From: Lachnospiraceae bacterium
GTDB taxonomy: Bacteria > Bacillota > Clostridia > Lachnospirales > Lachnospiraceae
DNA length: 32,633 nt
Assembly (NCBI GenBank): GCA_017513005.1
Contig: JAFWDM010000056.1
Coordinates: 1-32,633, forward strand
Direction of reading: 5' to 3'
Shown here piece by piece: positions 3,162 through 7,048 of the stretch. The notes beneath the pieces were generated by a model. The model was given only the letters and a program-made list of their open reading frames with translations. It searched no databases and had not been told where the DNA came from. The position numbers and the translations under genes were made by a program. Each line of letters opens with the position of its first letter. The stretch's first letter is position 1.

Positions 3162-3256
3162 CGAAGGATGCAATGACGCGCGAGCGAGTCTTGAATACAC
3201 GAAGCACATCCGATATAAAAGGACCTGCACAGCGCGCGGTCGCAAATCAAGATACT

Positions 3257-4282
3257 ATGGCAGCGAAAAAAGAAGATTTTGCAAGATTGCAAAAACAGCT
3301 CAATCAAGAACTCAGAGAAGGCACGTTCCGGCGTGCCTATCTTTTGTGCGGCGACCAGGCCTACCTGCGCCTGCAGAACCGGGACCGGCTGCGGGCGGCG
3401 CTTCTGGGGGACGGGGATGAGATGAATGTCTCGGTCTATACGGGCATGGACGTCACGGCCAGGGAGGTGATCGACCAGGCCCAGACCCTGCCTTTTTTTG
3501 CGGACCGGCGGGTAATCCTCCTGGAGAACTCTGTCTTTTTCTCCAAAAAGGCAGGCAGCGAGTCCGATGCCCTGGCCGCCTTTATCCCGGAGATTCCGGA
3601 AACGGCCTCCCTGGTCTTTGTGGAGGAGGCGCCGGACAAGCGCAGAAAGCTTTACAAGGCGATCGCGAAGAGCGGTTTCGTCCTGCCCTGTGAGGACATC
3701 CCCCCCGGTATGCTGGGCACCTGGACAGCGGGGCTCTTCAGAAAGGCGGGGCTTTCCATCGGCGGGGCTGCCCTGAACAGGTTCCTCGAGACGGTGGGAG
3801 AGGACATGATGAATATCGAGTCCGAGGCGGAGAAACTCATCGGCTATTGTATGGAACAGGGGGAGGTGACGGAAGGCGATATTGCTGCCGTCTGTACGCC
3901 GCTCCTCAGGGACCGGGTCTTTGAGATGATCAGCGCCGTCTCGCGCAGGCAGAAGGACAGGGCCCTGTCCATCTATATAGACCTCCTTGCCCTCCGCACG
4001 CCGGCCCAGGTCATCCTGACCCTTCTTCAGCGGGAATACGCCCGTCTGCTCCAGGTGAAGGAACTGCAGGGGGCGGGGGTTTCCGACGCGGAGATCGGAA
4101 AGCGGATCGGCCTCTCCCCCTGGATCGTGAAAAAAAACTATCTGCCGGTCATCCGGACCATGGAGTCCGGGCGGCTGGAAGCGTCCCTGCAGACCTGTCT
4201 CCAGGCCGACCAGGACTACAAGAGCGGCCTTATGGATGCCGGGATCGCGGTCGAAATGTCCATCATCCGTCTATGCTTGTGA
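3257..4282 (+). CDS. holA: DNA polymerase III subunit delta
   Basis: Delta subunit of the clamp-loader complex, which opens the beta clamp and loads it on DNA. The reading from the ATG at 3257 gives 341 residues, the usual family length, and begins with the typical helical start (FARLQKQLNQELREGTFRRAYLLCGDQ) leading into the degenerate AAA+ fold. The sequence then shows the FFADRRVILLENS and SLVFVEEAPDKRRKLYKAI strands characteristic of HolA, and ends with the C-terminal helical collar domain (YARLLQVKEL..., LSPWIVKKNY). An in-frame ATG at 3173 with a closely spaced GAAGGA would add 28 unlike-family residues; I consider it less likely, but the ribosome site at 3257 is weak, so the start is uncertain. 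It follows the RND gene on the same strand. Confidence 0.9.
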   Translation: MAAKKEDFARLQKQLNQELREGTFRRAYLLCGDQAYLRLQNRDRLRAALLGDGDEMNVSVYTGMDVTAREVIDQAQTLPFFADRRVILLENSVFFSKKAGSESDALAAFIPEIPETASLVFVEEAPDKRRKLYKAIAKSGFVLPCEDIPPGMLGTWTAGLFRKAGLSIGGAALNRFLETVGEDMMNIESEAEKLIGYCMEQGEVTEGDIAAVCTPLLRDRVFEMISAVSRRQKDRALSIYIDLLALRTPAQVILTLLQREYARLLQVKELQGAGVSDAEIGKRIGLSPWIVKKNYLPVIRTMESGRLEASLQTCLQADQDYKSGLMDAGIAVEMSIIRLCL

Positions 4283-4340: not shown

Positions 4341-4368
4341 TTGACAAATACCTTGAACATGTTATGAT
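4341..4368 (+). promoter_or_regulatory. Sigma-A type promoter of the nagB leader
   Basis: TTGACA (4341-4346) and TATGAT (4363-4368) are separated by 16 bases, with a TGT extended -10 directly upstream of the -10. Transcription would start near 4375, about 80 bases before the predicted ribozyme cleavage site and about 340 bases before the nagB start codon. This is one of the best consensus promoters in the window. Confidence 0.75.
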
Positions 4369-4375
4369 AAATAAC

Positions 4376-4405
4376 AAATCGTTCCGCCTGCAGGCGGGAC
4401 GATTT
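4376..4405 (+). repeat. Strong 5'-terminal hairpin of the nagB transcript
   Basis: A 13-base arm (4376-4388) pairs with 4393-4405 around a TGCA loop, with one G-T wobble. It starts right at the predicted transcription start, so it could cap and protect the 5' end. The A-run before and T-run after could instead make it the terminator of holA lying across the promoter. Both roles are possible. Confidence 0.55.
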
Positions 4406-4454
4406 TATTCAGATAAAATTTCTTCCGGCCGGCAGGAGGCGGCAGGAAGTCATT

Positions 4455-4603
4455 AGCGCCAGGGCCGTAACAGGCTGACGAGGTTTGGCAGTCATCGAAA
4501 GACTCGGCGGATGCTGCCACGGCTGAGAAAACGGATCAGGAGGAACTCTGTTCGTCCTGCTTTTCGTTTTTATGTGGGTCGTCAGGAAGAGGGCAAAAAG
4601 CAG
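4455..4603 (+). ncRNA. glmS ribozyme (GlcN6P-activated self-cleaving RNA) in the nagB leader
   Basis: The core matches the glmS ribozyme class segment by segment. The cleavage-site element A/GCGCC is at 4455-4460, with predicted scission between 4455 and 4456. AG follows, then a short P1 of GGCC (4463-4466) with GGCT (4473-4476) and a GTAACA loop. Next come invariant GACGAGG (4477-4483), P2.1 GGCAG (4487-4491) with CTGCC (4514-4518), ATCGA (4494-4498), and TCGGCGGATG (4504-4513). CGCC (4457-4460) can pair with GGCG (4506-4509) as P2. Downstream, an imperfect P3 can form (about 4520-4527 with 4546-4554), and a perfect 8-bp P4-like stem joins CTGCTTTT (4557-4564) to AAAAGCAG (4596-4603). I could not resolve the P3.1 pseudoknot, so the 3' limit is approximate. 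Family knowledge: the RNA uses GlcN6P as cofactor to cleave itself, and the downstream mRNA is then degraded. The downstream gene here is nagB, not glmS. Confidence 0.9.
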
Positions 4604-4717
4604 AATCAACACTGTAACAAAGACTCTTCCGGCACAGGTGCCGCATTGGAGGTCCGTAACCCGGTTATGGGCGGTTATGGATCGTTTTCAGAATGTGTAT
4701 ATAAGGAGAATAGAATC
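4604..4717 (+). promoter_or_regulatory. Spacer between ribozyme and nagB, with repeated anti-pairing element
   Basis: CCGTAACC (4654-4661) can pair with either of two identical copies of GGTTATGG (4663-4670 and 4673-4680), each with one G-T wobble. Only the second copy leaves a normal-size loop. A smaller CGGCA/TGCCG hairpin lies near 4630-4643. The ribosome binding site AAGGAG is at 4703-4708, nine bases before the nagB ATG. No known riboswitch aptamer was recognised in this part. Confidence 0.45.
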
Positions 4718-5509
4718 ATGCGAGTCGTTATTCAGGACAACTATGAGAAGATGTGCAAATGGGCAGCGGACTATATCGCGGCGAAGATCAATGCACACAG
4801 GGAGGACCGGCCTTTTGTTCTCGGCCTGCCGACAGGTTCCTCCCCGATCGGTGTCTATGAGGAGCTGGTCAGAAAGAACAAGGCCGGCGAGGTCTCCTTT
4901 TCAAATGTCGTGACTTTCAATATGGATGAATACCTGGGCCTGCCCCGTGAGCATGACCAGAGCTACTGGTACTTCATGCACTATTATTTCTTTGACCACC
5001 TGGTTGACATGAAGCCGGAGAATATCAACATCCTCAACGGCATGACGGATGATCCCGAGGGAGAGTGCGCCCGCTATGAGGCGAAGATCGCTTCCTACGG
5101 CGGGATCGATCTCTTCATGGGCGGGATCGGCGTGGACGGCCATATCGCCTTCAACGAGCCTTTCACTTCCCTGAATTCCAGGACCGGTGTCCGCAACCTG
5201 ACCACGGATACCAGGATCGTGAACTCCCGCTTCTTTGACAACGATATGAGCAAGGTACCCTCACAGGCTCTCTCCGTCGGGATCGGCACTGTGACCGATT
5301 CAAAGGAGGTCCTGATCCTGATCAACGGGCACAACAAGGCCCGCGCCCTGGCAAAGACCGTCGAGGGCGGAGTCAGCCAGCGCTGGACCTGCAGCGCCCT
5401 GCAGATACACAATGCGGCGATCATCGCCTGTGACGAGGAAGCCTGCGGGGAACTGACCGTGGACACGTATAAATATTTCCTGGATATCGAAAAGAACGAG
5501 AGGCTCTGA
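4718..5509 (+). CDS. nagB: Glucosamine-6-phosphate deaminase (possibly working as an aminating GlcN6P synthase)
   Basis: The 263-residue protein matches NagB in length and motifs: phosphate-binding LGLPTGSSPIGVYEEL (about 35-50), NMDEYLGL with Asp70, and GGIGVDGHIAFNEP with Asp140, His142 and Glu147. These align with E. coli Asp72, Asp141, His143 and Glu148. The start at 4718 has AAGGAG nine bases upstream; longer in-frame readings would run through the ribozyme and are rejected. The enzyme interconverts GlcN6P with fructose-6-P plus ammonia in the cytoplasm. The usual direction is degradation, but the reaction is reversible. Placement behind a GlcN6P-triggered ribozyme and ahead of glmM suggests that here it may make GlcN6P. 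That is inference; the catalytic residues themselves look like an ordinary NagB. Confidence 0.95.
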   Translation: MRVVIQDNYEKMCKWAADYIAAKINAHREDRPFVLGLPTGSSPIGVYEELVRKNKAGEVSFSNVVTFNMDEYLGLPREHDQSYWYFMHYYFFDHLVDMKPENINILNGMTDDPEGECARYEAKIASYGGIDLFMGGIGVDGHIAFNEPFTSLNSRTGVRNLTTDTRIVNSRFFDNDMSKVPSQALSVGIGTVTDSKEVLILINGHNKARALAKTVEGGVSQRWTCSALQIHNAAIIACDEEACGELTVDTYKYFLDIEKNERL

Positions 5510-5695: not shown

Positions 5696-7048
5696 ATGGG
5701 TAAATACTTCGGAACGGACGGCTTCCGCGGGGAAGCCAACACTGTATTGAATTATGAGCACGCGATCAGGATCGGGCGTTTTCTGGGATGGTACTACGGG
5801 GCCCGCGAGGGCAAAAAGGCCAAGATCGTCATCGGCAAGGACACGAGAAGGTCCAGCTATATGTTTGAGTACGCACTCTGCACGGGACTGATGGCCTCCG
5901 GCGCGGACGCCTATATCATGCACGTGACGACGACCCCCTCGGTGGCCTATATCACCCGCGTGGACGATTTTGACTGCGGCATCATGATTTCGGCCTCCCA
6001 CAATCCCTATTACGACAACGGCATCAAGCTCCTCAACGGAAACGGCGAGAAGATGGACGAGGAGACCATCCTCAAGGTCGAGGATTATATCGACGGCAAG
6101 ATGGAGATTCCCGTTGCGAGCGGACACGAGATCGGCAGGACGGTGGACTACGTCTCCGGCCGCAACCGCTATATCGGCTATCTGATCTCCATGTCCAAGT
6201 TCAGCTTCAAGGACAAGAAGGTCGGCCTCGACGTCGCAAACGGCGCTGCCTGGTCCATCGCAAAGGGCGTCTTCGATGCGCTCGGCGCGAGGACCTATGT
6301 CATCAACGCTGAGCCGGACGGCTACAATATCAATACGGACTGCGGCAGCACGCACATTGAGCACTTGCAGAAATTTGTCGTCGACAACAAGCTGGATATC
6401 GGCTTTGCCTATGACGGCGACGCGGACCGGTGCCTGTGCGTCGACGAGAAGGGCAACGTGGTCACGGGTGACCACATCCTCTACATCTACGGCCTGTATA
6501 TGAAGGAGCGCGACAAGCTCCTCAACAACAAGGTCGTCACTACTGTCATGAGCAACTTCGGCCTCTACAAGGCTTTTGACAAGGTCGGGATCGAATACGA
6601 AAAGACCAAGGTCGGCGACAAGTATGTCTATGAGAATATGGTCAAAAACGGCCACCGCATCGGCGGCGAGCAGAGCGGCCATATCATTTTTACGAAATAC
6701 GCGACCACCGGCGACGGCATCCTGACCTCTCTCAAGCTGATGGAAGTCATGCTGGCCAAGGGCAAGCCCATGAGCGAGCTTGCGGCTCCGGTCGTATTTT
6801 ATCCCCAGGTGCTGAAAAACGTCCGCGTCAAATCCAAACCGGACGCTCAGAATGACCCGGATGTCCAGCTCCAGGTCGAGAAGGTCGGTCAGGCACTCGG
6901 CGACGAGGGCCGGATCCTTGTCCGTGAGAGCGGCACAGAACCTGTGATCCGCGTCATGGTCGAGGCAGGATCCGACGAGACCTGCGAGAAATATGTGGAT
7001 TCCGTCATCGATGTCATTGAAAAGAAGGGGTATCTGGCGGACGACTGA
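5696..7048 (+). CDS. glmM: Phosphoglucosamine mutase
   Basis: Converts glucosamine-6-phosphate to glucosamine-1-phosphate, the step feeding UDP-GlcNAc for peptidoglycan. The protein of 450 residues has the full alpha-D-phosphohexomutase plan: N-terminal GTDGFRG, the phosphoserine loop MISASHNPYYDNG with Ser101 as the catalytic residue, the metal loop DGDADRC near 240, the sugar-binding GGEQSGH (about residue 322), and the C-terminal phosphate-binding RESGTEPVIRVMVE (about 409-422). GTDGFRG with SASHNPYYDNGIK is typical of GlmM rather than phosphoglucomutase. The ATG at 5696 follows AGGAGG by six bases; a longer in-frame reading back to 5591 would translate the leader hairpins and is rejected. 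It lies 186 bases after nagB on the same strand with no clear terminator between, so cotranscription is plausible, and the product of NagB run in reverse would be its substrate. Confidence 0.95.
   Translation: MGKYFGTDGFRGEANTVLNYEHAIRIGRFLGWYYGAREGKKAKIVIGKDTRRSSYMFEYALCTGLMASGADAYIMHVTTTPSVAYITRVDDFDCGIMISASHNPYYDNGIKLLNGNGEKMDEETILKVEDYIDGKMEIPVASGHEIGRTVDYVSGRNRYIGYLISMSKFSFKDKKVGLDVANGAAWSIAKGVFDALGARTYVINAEPDGYNINTDCGSTHIEHLQKFVVDNKLDIGFAYDGDADRCLCVDEKGNVVTGDHILYIYGLYMKERDKLLNNKVVTTVMSNFGLYKAFDKVGIEYEKTKVGDKYVYENMVKNGHRIGGEQSGHIIFTKYATTGDGILTSLKLMEVMLAKGKPMSELAAPVVFYPQVLKNVRVKSKPDAQNDPDVQLQVEKVGQALGDEGRILVRESGTEPVIRVMVEAGSDETCEKYVDSVIDVIEKKGYLADD

Follow-up and report, generated by a model that had tools for sequence, protein, structure and literature searches.

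The leader of a nagB gene in a Lachnospiraceae bacterium (4443-4636, plus strand, of the window, the 32,633-nucleotide stretch analysed as a whole) is, judging from its sequence, a complete glmS ribozyme, and this RNA probably provides product feedback on the nagB operon, with NagB making GlcN6P from fructose-6-P and ammonia. The glmS ribozyme is the textbook case of one RNA for one gene; McCown et al. reportedly found in 2011 that, of 463 glmS ribozymes, only two are not part of a glmS mRNA. The RNA described here shares with the RF00234 class its cleavage site, core, P1-P4 plan, P4-loop purines and a 5′-UTR position behind its own promoter; whereas members of that class usually precede glmS, the present one precedes nagB, within a nagB(-X-glmM) arrangement. 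The sequence-only reading knew of no description of this pairing. Consistent with this, no paper reporting a glmS ribozyme before nagB was found by title or abstract opening in the open-licence PMC literature, and while the components, from the RNA class to NagB and its anabolic use, are all known, the titles and abstract openings of that literature showed nothing on their combination under regulation, on how far it is spread or on its operon.

A covariance search of the window with RF00234 returned a match over the full model length at 4444-4617 (36.4 bits, E 5e-7), the sole match at E≤10 in the genome to which the window belongs (G000; 130 contigs totalling 2.68 Mb, completeness 97.4%). The score falls 0.6 bits short of the gathering score of 37, so that a default Rfam scan of the window lists nothing. 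The sequence-only reading, which had recognised the core segments and a P4-like stem, had proposed this search and expected a hit above threshold; the ribozyme stands, whereas the expected score was narrowly missed because of a long P3 insert, an extension of about 50 nt. In fact, the Rfam alignment of the window breaks in P3/P4, and both helices are misplaced. A clade covariance model trained on 29 nagB-linked ribozymes with short P3, from which the window was excluded, scores the window at 137.9 bits (E 1e-31 by a rough calibration; span 4443-4636), with no non-standard pairs flagged in its alignment. Run on 80 related nagB loci, the same model gives 83-152 bits for 37 of them (24 are training members, and the other 13 score 83-142 bits), and it also recognises all 29 glmS-linked ribozymes tested, these at just 42-73 bits. 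A decayed, non-working leftover of a glmS leader would fit the sub-threshold Rfam score; it is nonetheless a very improbable account of the window, given its score and intact pairing in a model that had not seen it, the invariance of the core and most P4-loop purines across 46 sequences, and the fact that all 37 nagB-linked relatives having the core pass the Rfam cut-off.

Self-cleavage is predicted between A4455 and G4456, exactly where the sequence-only reading had placed it, by both the Rfam and the clade model, and both letters are invariant in the 46 aligned ribozymes. The catalytic core (4456..4519, plus strand like all features below) comprises GCGCC at 4456-4460, P1 (4463-4466/4473-4476), GACGAGG at 4477-4483, a core helix at 4486-4491/4514-4519, ATCGA at 4494-4498, a second core helix at 4495-4498/4504-4507, and CGGCGGATG at 4505-4513; the core and its helices are supported by alignment, covariation and the clade model. 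The A/GCGCC cleavage site and the three further core motifs are all present in order. Mapping the numbering by motif, we infer that G4483 is the equivalent of B. subtilis G42 and Tte G40; the roles of core residues are described in PMC11602151 (excerpt). Downstream of the core, P3 (4520..4581; strands 4520-4524/4577-4581) carries a long distal hairpin in the clade model and folds at -27.1 kcal/mol (z -3.9), while P4 (4585..4630; strands 4585-4591/4624-4630), placed by the clade model and covariation, reaches -14.5 kcal/mol when folded alone (z -4.4). Within P4, the alignment locates internal-loop purines at 4595-4599 and 4616-4623 and, together with covariation, an inner helix at 4600-4603/4612-4615; by eye and folding, the loop enclosed by P4 in the window is AAAAAGCAGAATCAACACTGTAACAAAGA. 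The AAAAA...AACARA pattern of the P4 loop occurs in 46/46 aligned ribozymes, one of which (L147) has one change in the A run. In the glmS ribozyme, the purine stack of this internal loop docks on P2.1 (PMC11602151, excerpt). The P2.1/P2.2 pseudoknot strands are conserved as strands.

The 46 aligned leaders comprise the window and ribozyme-like leaders from the 80 nagB loci and the family genomes. Looser-regex hits lying within genes (L043, on the minus strand, L051, L072, L078 and L104) were dropped before alignment, L150 was left out as a duplicate of L068, and L163 (from genome G257), which the regex did not pick up, is absent from the alignments. Across these leaders, the 30 named pairs, which follow the anatomy of the window, show 96.8% pairing, and 17 of them vary on both sides; slid controls are 32-53% paired, and none of 500 shuffles reaches the observed level of pairing and covariation, a count that is not a probability because the aligned sequences are related. 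Together with the clade-model score, this covariation leads us to reject a chance match.

Upstream of the ribozyme lies a sigma-70-type promoter (4341..4368), TTGACA-16 nt-TATGAT with an extended TG -10, which the sequence-only reading had noted as a good promoter and which agrees with the consensus at 11 of 12 positions; the scanned stretch holds three promoter-like sites, where 1.1 are expected. A 13-bp hairpin spans 4376..4405, where the transcript is expected to begin (-20.6 kcal/mol, z -6.5). By eye, some relatives have a strong hairpin in this position and others do not. A further leader element (4416..4455) ends at the cleavage site and recurs upstream of nagB-type ribozymes; in the window, an imperfectly paired helix (4422-4426/4445-4449) encloses a Shine-Dalgarno-like AGGAGG at 4434-4439. 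This element and a long, variable P3 count among the differences from the RF00234 class. In 26 of the 46 leaders an exact 5-mer complement precedes the cleavage site, against a mean of 7.6 and a maximum of 15 in between-sequence shuffles (n=500); the window's own helix contains mismatches and fails this exact test. In a cruder test of helix length, at least six contiguous pairs are present in 31/46 leaders and in 40% of shuffles. Before glmS-linked ribozymes (n=29) the helix is not enriched (mean length 5.4, shuffled 5.3). GGAGG is found upstream of the cleavage site in 34/46 nagB-type leaders (3.6 expected) and is also enriched before glmS-linked ribozymes (6/29, 0.2 expected). Our guess is that the AGGAGG and its helix could act as a Shine-Dalgarno-like mRNA stabiliser, shielding the transcript until removed by cleavage, by analogy with the cry3A case.

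The gene behind the ribozyme, nagB (4718..5509), which the sequence-only reading had identified correctly, is preceded by the Shine-Dalgarno sequence AAGGAGA at 4703-4709 and encodes a protein of 263 residues of the long, E. coli-like type (TIGR00502, 374.1 bits; cut-off 236.9). Compared with seven long bacterial chains it scores 313-337 bits (317 for E. coli 1cd5), and with B. subtilis 2bkv 188. It thus shares with the hexameric E. coli-type NagB (1cd5; TIGR00502) the long form and identical catalytic residues: D72, D141, H143 and E148 in E. coli numbering are invariant in the window and 82 relatives. It differs in the changes S151T, R158G and K160R and in its linkage to glmM, not nagA. We take S151, R158 and K160 to be the residues that hold the phosphate of the GlcNAc6P activator in E. 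coli NagB. With its catalytic residues kept and these allosteric residues replaced, the enzyme should be functional and should not respond to GlcNAc6P. The three changes are present in all 40 ribozyme-linked NagBs and in 42 of 43 NagBs in which no ribozyme was detected (of 82 relatives, 81 share T, G and R with the window), and hence do not track the ribozyme. Nor does loss of the GlcNAc6P site by itself prove a direction, since Bacillus-type NagBs also have no GlcNAc6P allostery (PMC9812318, excerpt).

The next gene after nagB is glmM, phosphoglucosamine mutase (5696..7048; TIGR01455, 535.7 bits; cut-off 447.6), while a holA-like gene upstream (3224..4282; TIGR01128, 248.5 bits; cut-off 80) lies outside the unit. 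We compared the gene order behind 38 ribozyme loci, the window and 37 others, within the flanks available. The order is nagB-X-glmM in 20, X-nagB-glmM in four, X-glmM-nagB in two, nagB-glmM in two (the window included), X-nagB-glmM-glmS in one, glmM-nagB-glmS in one, nagB-X in one (near a contig end) and nagB alone in seven (one near a contig end). Within these flanks, glmM is therefore found in 30/38 loci, gene X in 28/38 and glmS in two, whereas nagA occurs in none of the 38. In ordinary NagB genomes, nagA lies ≤300 bases from nagB in 12 of the 19 with a listed nagB place in both searches; three ordinary nagB-nagA stretches were chosen as examples because the two genes were already known to stand side by side, and are no sample. 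The glmS gene lies downstream of nagB genes on the same strand in G309, G325 and G335, and just upstream of the ribozyme in G230 and G301. In the three cases tested, gene X encodes a stand-alone left-handed-helix acetyltransferase resembling the C-terminal half of GlmU (139-141 bits against Arch_glmU, 3/3). The relatives' gene X aligns to the C-terminal acetyltransferase half of GlmU (TIGR03992/TIGR01173), and differs from GlmU in standing alone, without the nucleotidyltransferase half, and in scoring below the family cut-offs. One example is L046 3792-4457, a GlmU-C-like stand-alone acetyltransferase of putative function. A genome search, run without a positive control, did not find gene X in G000. 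We conclude that the nagB-linked unit is a UDP-GlcNAc precursor operon: nagB-glmM here, and nagB with a GlmU-like gene and glmM in most relatives.

Since the operon holds the later steps of UDP-GlcNAc synthesis, the ribozyme might serve glmM and the acetyltransferase. NagB would then be a passenger on the transcript or a valve for overflow, and species without glmS would live on salvaged GlcNAc, as does Akkermansia, a GlmS-less GlcNAc auxotroph (PMC5902328, excerpt); some NagB is found in 17 of 20 glmS-less family genomes, 16 times of the ordinary type. Against this, nagB is the first gene behind the ribozyme in 30/38 loci and, as the sole gene of the set in seven, itself looks like the ribozyme's target; an overflow drain, moreover, would need to rise, not fall, with GlcN6P. 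We therefore consider a passenger NagB improbable, and retain feedback on a GlcN6P-forming NagB as the preferred reading.

The survey of related genomes suggested by the sequence-only reading located the leader at 37 of 80 related nagB loci and in 11 family genomes, and a one-off pairing is rejected on the strength of this recurrence. What that reading had not foreseen is that the pairing is widespread, that ribozyme, nagB and glmM occur as a linked set, and that 31 of the 37 genomes also have glmS. The family sample covers 299 genomes of the window's family from 298 genera, and was searched with stricter filters, at the cost of some weak matches. RF00234 matches occur in 61/299; the genes behind them are glmS in 49, nagB alone or with partners in 11 (window included) and no tested gene in one. 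We counted 60 family ribozymes, 58 above the Rfam cut-off plus the window and G257, added by the clade model. The match in G126 (22.9 bits in Rfam, 14.0 bits in the clade model, no tested gene behind) was rejected as a ribozyme. Searched with the window's NagB, the 299 genomes are bimodal: 11 carry a protein of 83-100% identity and 157 a more distant one (best ≤48% among the matches listed, the rest judged by E-value). The 11 genomes with window-type NagB are exactly the 11 ribozyme-nagB genomes, whereas none of the 157 with only ordinary NagB has a ribozyme leader before nagB.

Most of the 80 loci come from MAGs, for many of which rumen or gut is the source; their labels are Lachnospiraceae, Clostridiales, Clostridia, Oscillospiraceae, Erysipelotrichaceae and others. 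The ribozyme was not seen at 43 of the loci, several of which end at contig ends. One carrier, Ruminococcaceae bacterium P7 (L067), seems to be an isolate and has two glmS genes as well, and the family genome G234 is that of locus L068, labelled Lachnospiraceae. Loci L097-L114 except L113 form a related NagB group (69-74% identity, mostly Oscillospiraceae or Clostridia labels) with the same changed allosteric residues and no ribozyme in the stretches examined. In L109 of this group, nagB stands by eye between formate-THF ligase-like and aminotransferase-like genes, with a sugar transferase-like gene next; the two genomes tested from the group, G346 and G347, are without glmS. In G257 (C8:91699-92040; L168 1107-1550, 1692-3437) the nagB frame of the ribozyme-nagB is broken after about 114 residues and a transposase-like gene follows, so that nagB is dispensable in this natural knock-out, a genome that has glmS.

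The window's genome shows no glmS above the cut-off (TIGR01135, 418 bits), a search positive in 14/14 control genomes; it contains three pieces, all in the first 223 model positions (the amidotransferase part), the best at 107.7 bits. In contrast, the sister genome G267, of the same genus and 99% complete, has glmS, and genome searches gave neither a NagB nor a ribozyme match there. The neighbourhood of glmS in G267 is partly conserved on contig C106 of the window's genome, without glmS: murA (73% DNA identity), a glycosyltransferase stretch (68%) and, by eye, a hypothetical gene stand in similar order, while a phosphomutase-like gene, possibly a paralogue, is inverted and the match of a LytR-like neighbour lies on contig C20. 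Because these other neighbours are inverted or elsewhere, the comparison suggests, and does not prove, a loss of glmS; in an assembly 97.4% complete, a gap may still be the cause.

Replacement of glmS by nagB is rejected as the general case. We surveyed glmS, the ribozyme and leuS in 50 of the 80 nagB genomes, namely all 37 with a ribozyme core and a hand-picked 13 of the 43 without. Among the 37, 31 keep glmS (29 above the cut-off, two as fragments), as do all 10 other family genomes with window-type NagB, so that replacement is a minority state. The gene is absent from 6/37 genomes with the ribozyme and 6/13 without (12/50 with window-type NagB); leuS, a single marker, is present in 50/50. 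All but one of the glmS-carrying ribozyme-nagB genomes lack a ribozyme match at glmS, and the clade model found none in the stretches examined at 20 of their glmS genes and that of the sister. G322 has one ribozyme at nagB and a second just before glmS. In the wider family, 20/299 genomes have no glmS match, some of them 99% complete and in few contigs (G178, G123, G096), and NagB is more frequent among these than in genomes with glmS (17/20 vs 151/279; Fisher p 0.009). Are these genomes auxotrophs, or do they hold another anabolic NagB?

The distribution of nagA bears on the direction of the reaction. In hand-picked sets, a genome search for nagA was positive in 21/48 ribozyme-nagB genomes (20/47 distinct ones, as G234 and G321 are the same), 24/25 ordinary-NagB genomes and 2/7 NagB-free genomes. 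The window's genome keeps nagA, and could therefore live on salvaged GlcNAc.

In sum, to shut off an enzyme that destroys GlcN6P just when this sugar is abundant would be self-defeating, whereas for an enzyme that makes it such an off-switch is ordinary feedback. The sequence-only reading had rightly seen that the pairing is sensible only if NagB is synthetic or cleavage stabilises the mRNA; the first is favoured by the operon partners, the missing nagA, the loss of the GlcNAc6P site, the contrast between glmS and nagB within one genus and the two ribozymes of G322. In the mechanism we propose, NagB would run in the aminating direction (fructose-6-P + NH4+ -> GlcN6P) and GlmM would draw the product away; plentiful GlcN6P would bind the ribozyme and lead to the cut between 4455 and 4456, whereupon the cleaved downstream mRNA would decay and NagB and GlmM would drop. 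This would be the feedback loop classically known from glmS, in which the RNA has stayed and the enzyme has been exchanged. NagB would act in place of GlmS in the window's species and, in most relatives, as an ammonia-using second route beside GlmS. We think the latter role is the usual one, since most carriers also have GlmS; other pairs of ammonia- and glutamine-using enzymes provide an analogy.

A precedent for such an enzyme is the NagB of Giardia lamblia (GlmNagB), which forms GlcN6P from Fru6P and ammonia and is unaffected by GlcNAc6P (PMC4281351, excerpt). The reaction, Fru6P + NH4+ -> GlcN6P, is the one proposed here, and the insensitivity to GlcNAc6P there has its parallel in the changed allosteric residues here; however, the Giardia enzyme is a eukaryotic monomer, dimer or tetramer, whereas the window's is bacterial, of the long form and encoded in a ribozyme-headed operon. 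The strongest counter-case to an anabolic NagB is Akkermansia muciniphila, a gut bacterium without GlmS, like the window's genome with its missing glmS match. Its NagB, which GlcNAc6P does not activate, carries out amination only at levels that are not physiological (Km NH4 41 mM), and GlcNAc is a requirement of the cell (PMC5902328, excerpt).

More generally, known NagBs aminate poorly, which counts against the anabolic reading, as does the Km for NH4Cl of 19-23 mM of the Giardia enzyme (PMC4281351, excerpt). NagB may alternatively be catabolic and deaminate GlcN6P, the ribozyme being inherited or wrong-way control, or cleavage stabilising the mRNA and turning NagB on at high GlcN6P. NagB is indeed catabolic in most organisms (PMC4281351, excerpt), that of Akkermansia is effectively one-way under physiological conditions (PMC5902328, excerpt), and both the nagA of the window's genome and the glmS retained in 31/37 ribozyme-nagB genomes would suit this alternative. 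Yet it appears unlikely to us: nagA is missing from all 38 ribozyme-locus flanks and from 27/48 such genomes, against 1/25 with ordinary NagB, glmM and a GlmU-like gene accompany nagB in the operon, ribozymes stand at glmS as well as at nagB in G322, and cleavage of the glmS leader is known to end in decay of the mRNA (PMC11477304, excerpt).

Returning to the synthetic reading, we lean, with some reserve, towards the view that some Lachnospiraceae and related rumen Clostridia may divide the first committed cell-wall sugar step between glutamine-dependent GlmS and a NagB that depends on ammonia and is blind to GlcNAc6P, or may have handed it over to the latter; the ribozyme sensor would be retained on the NagB operon, together with an upstream helix and a Shine-Dalgarno-like stabiliser that cleavage would remove. 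From gene context alone, the same RNA then predicts that living bacteria use a 'catabolic' enzyme in reverse. If true, a riboswitch could serve as a reporter of reaction direction, and the annotation of NagB would be corrected in many rumen genomes. The glmS ribozyme is pursued as an antibiotic target (PMC11477304, excerpt), and the pairing bears on activators of this ribozyme as drugs. An old question becomes testable, namely whether NagB supplies GlcN6P for cell walls in ammonia-rich niches.
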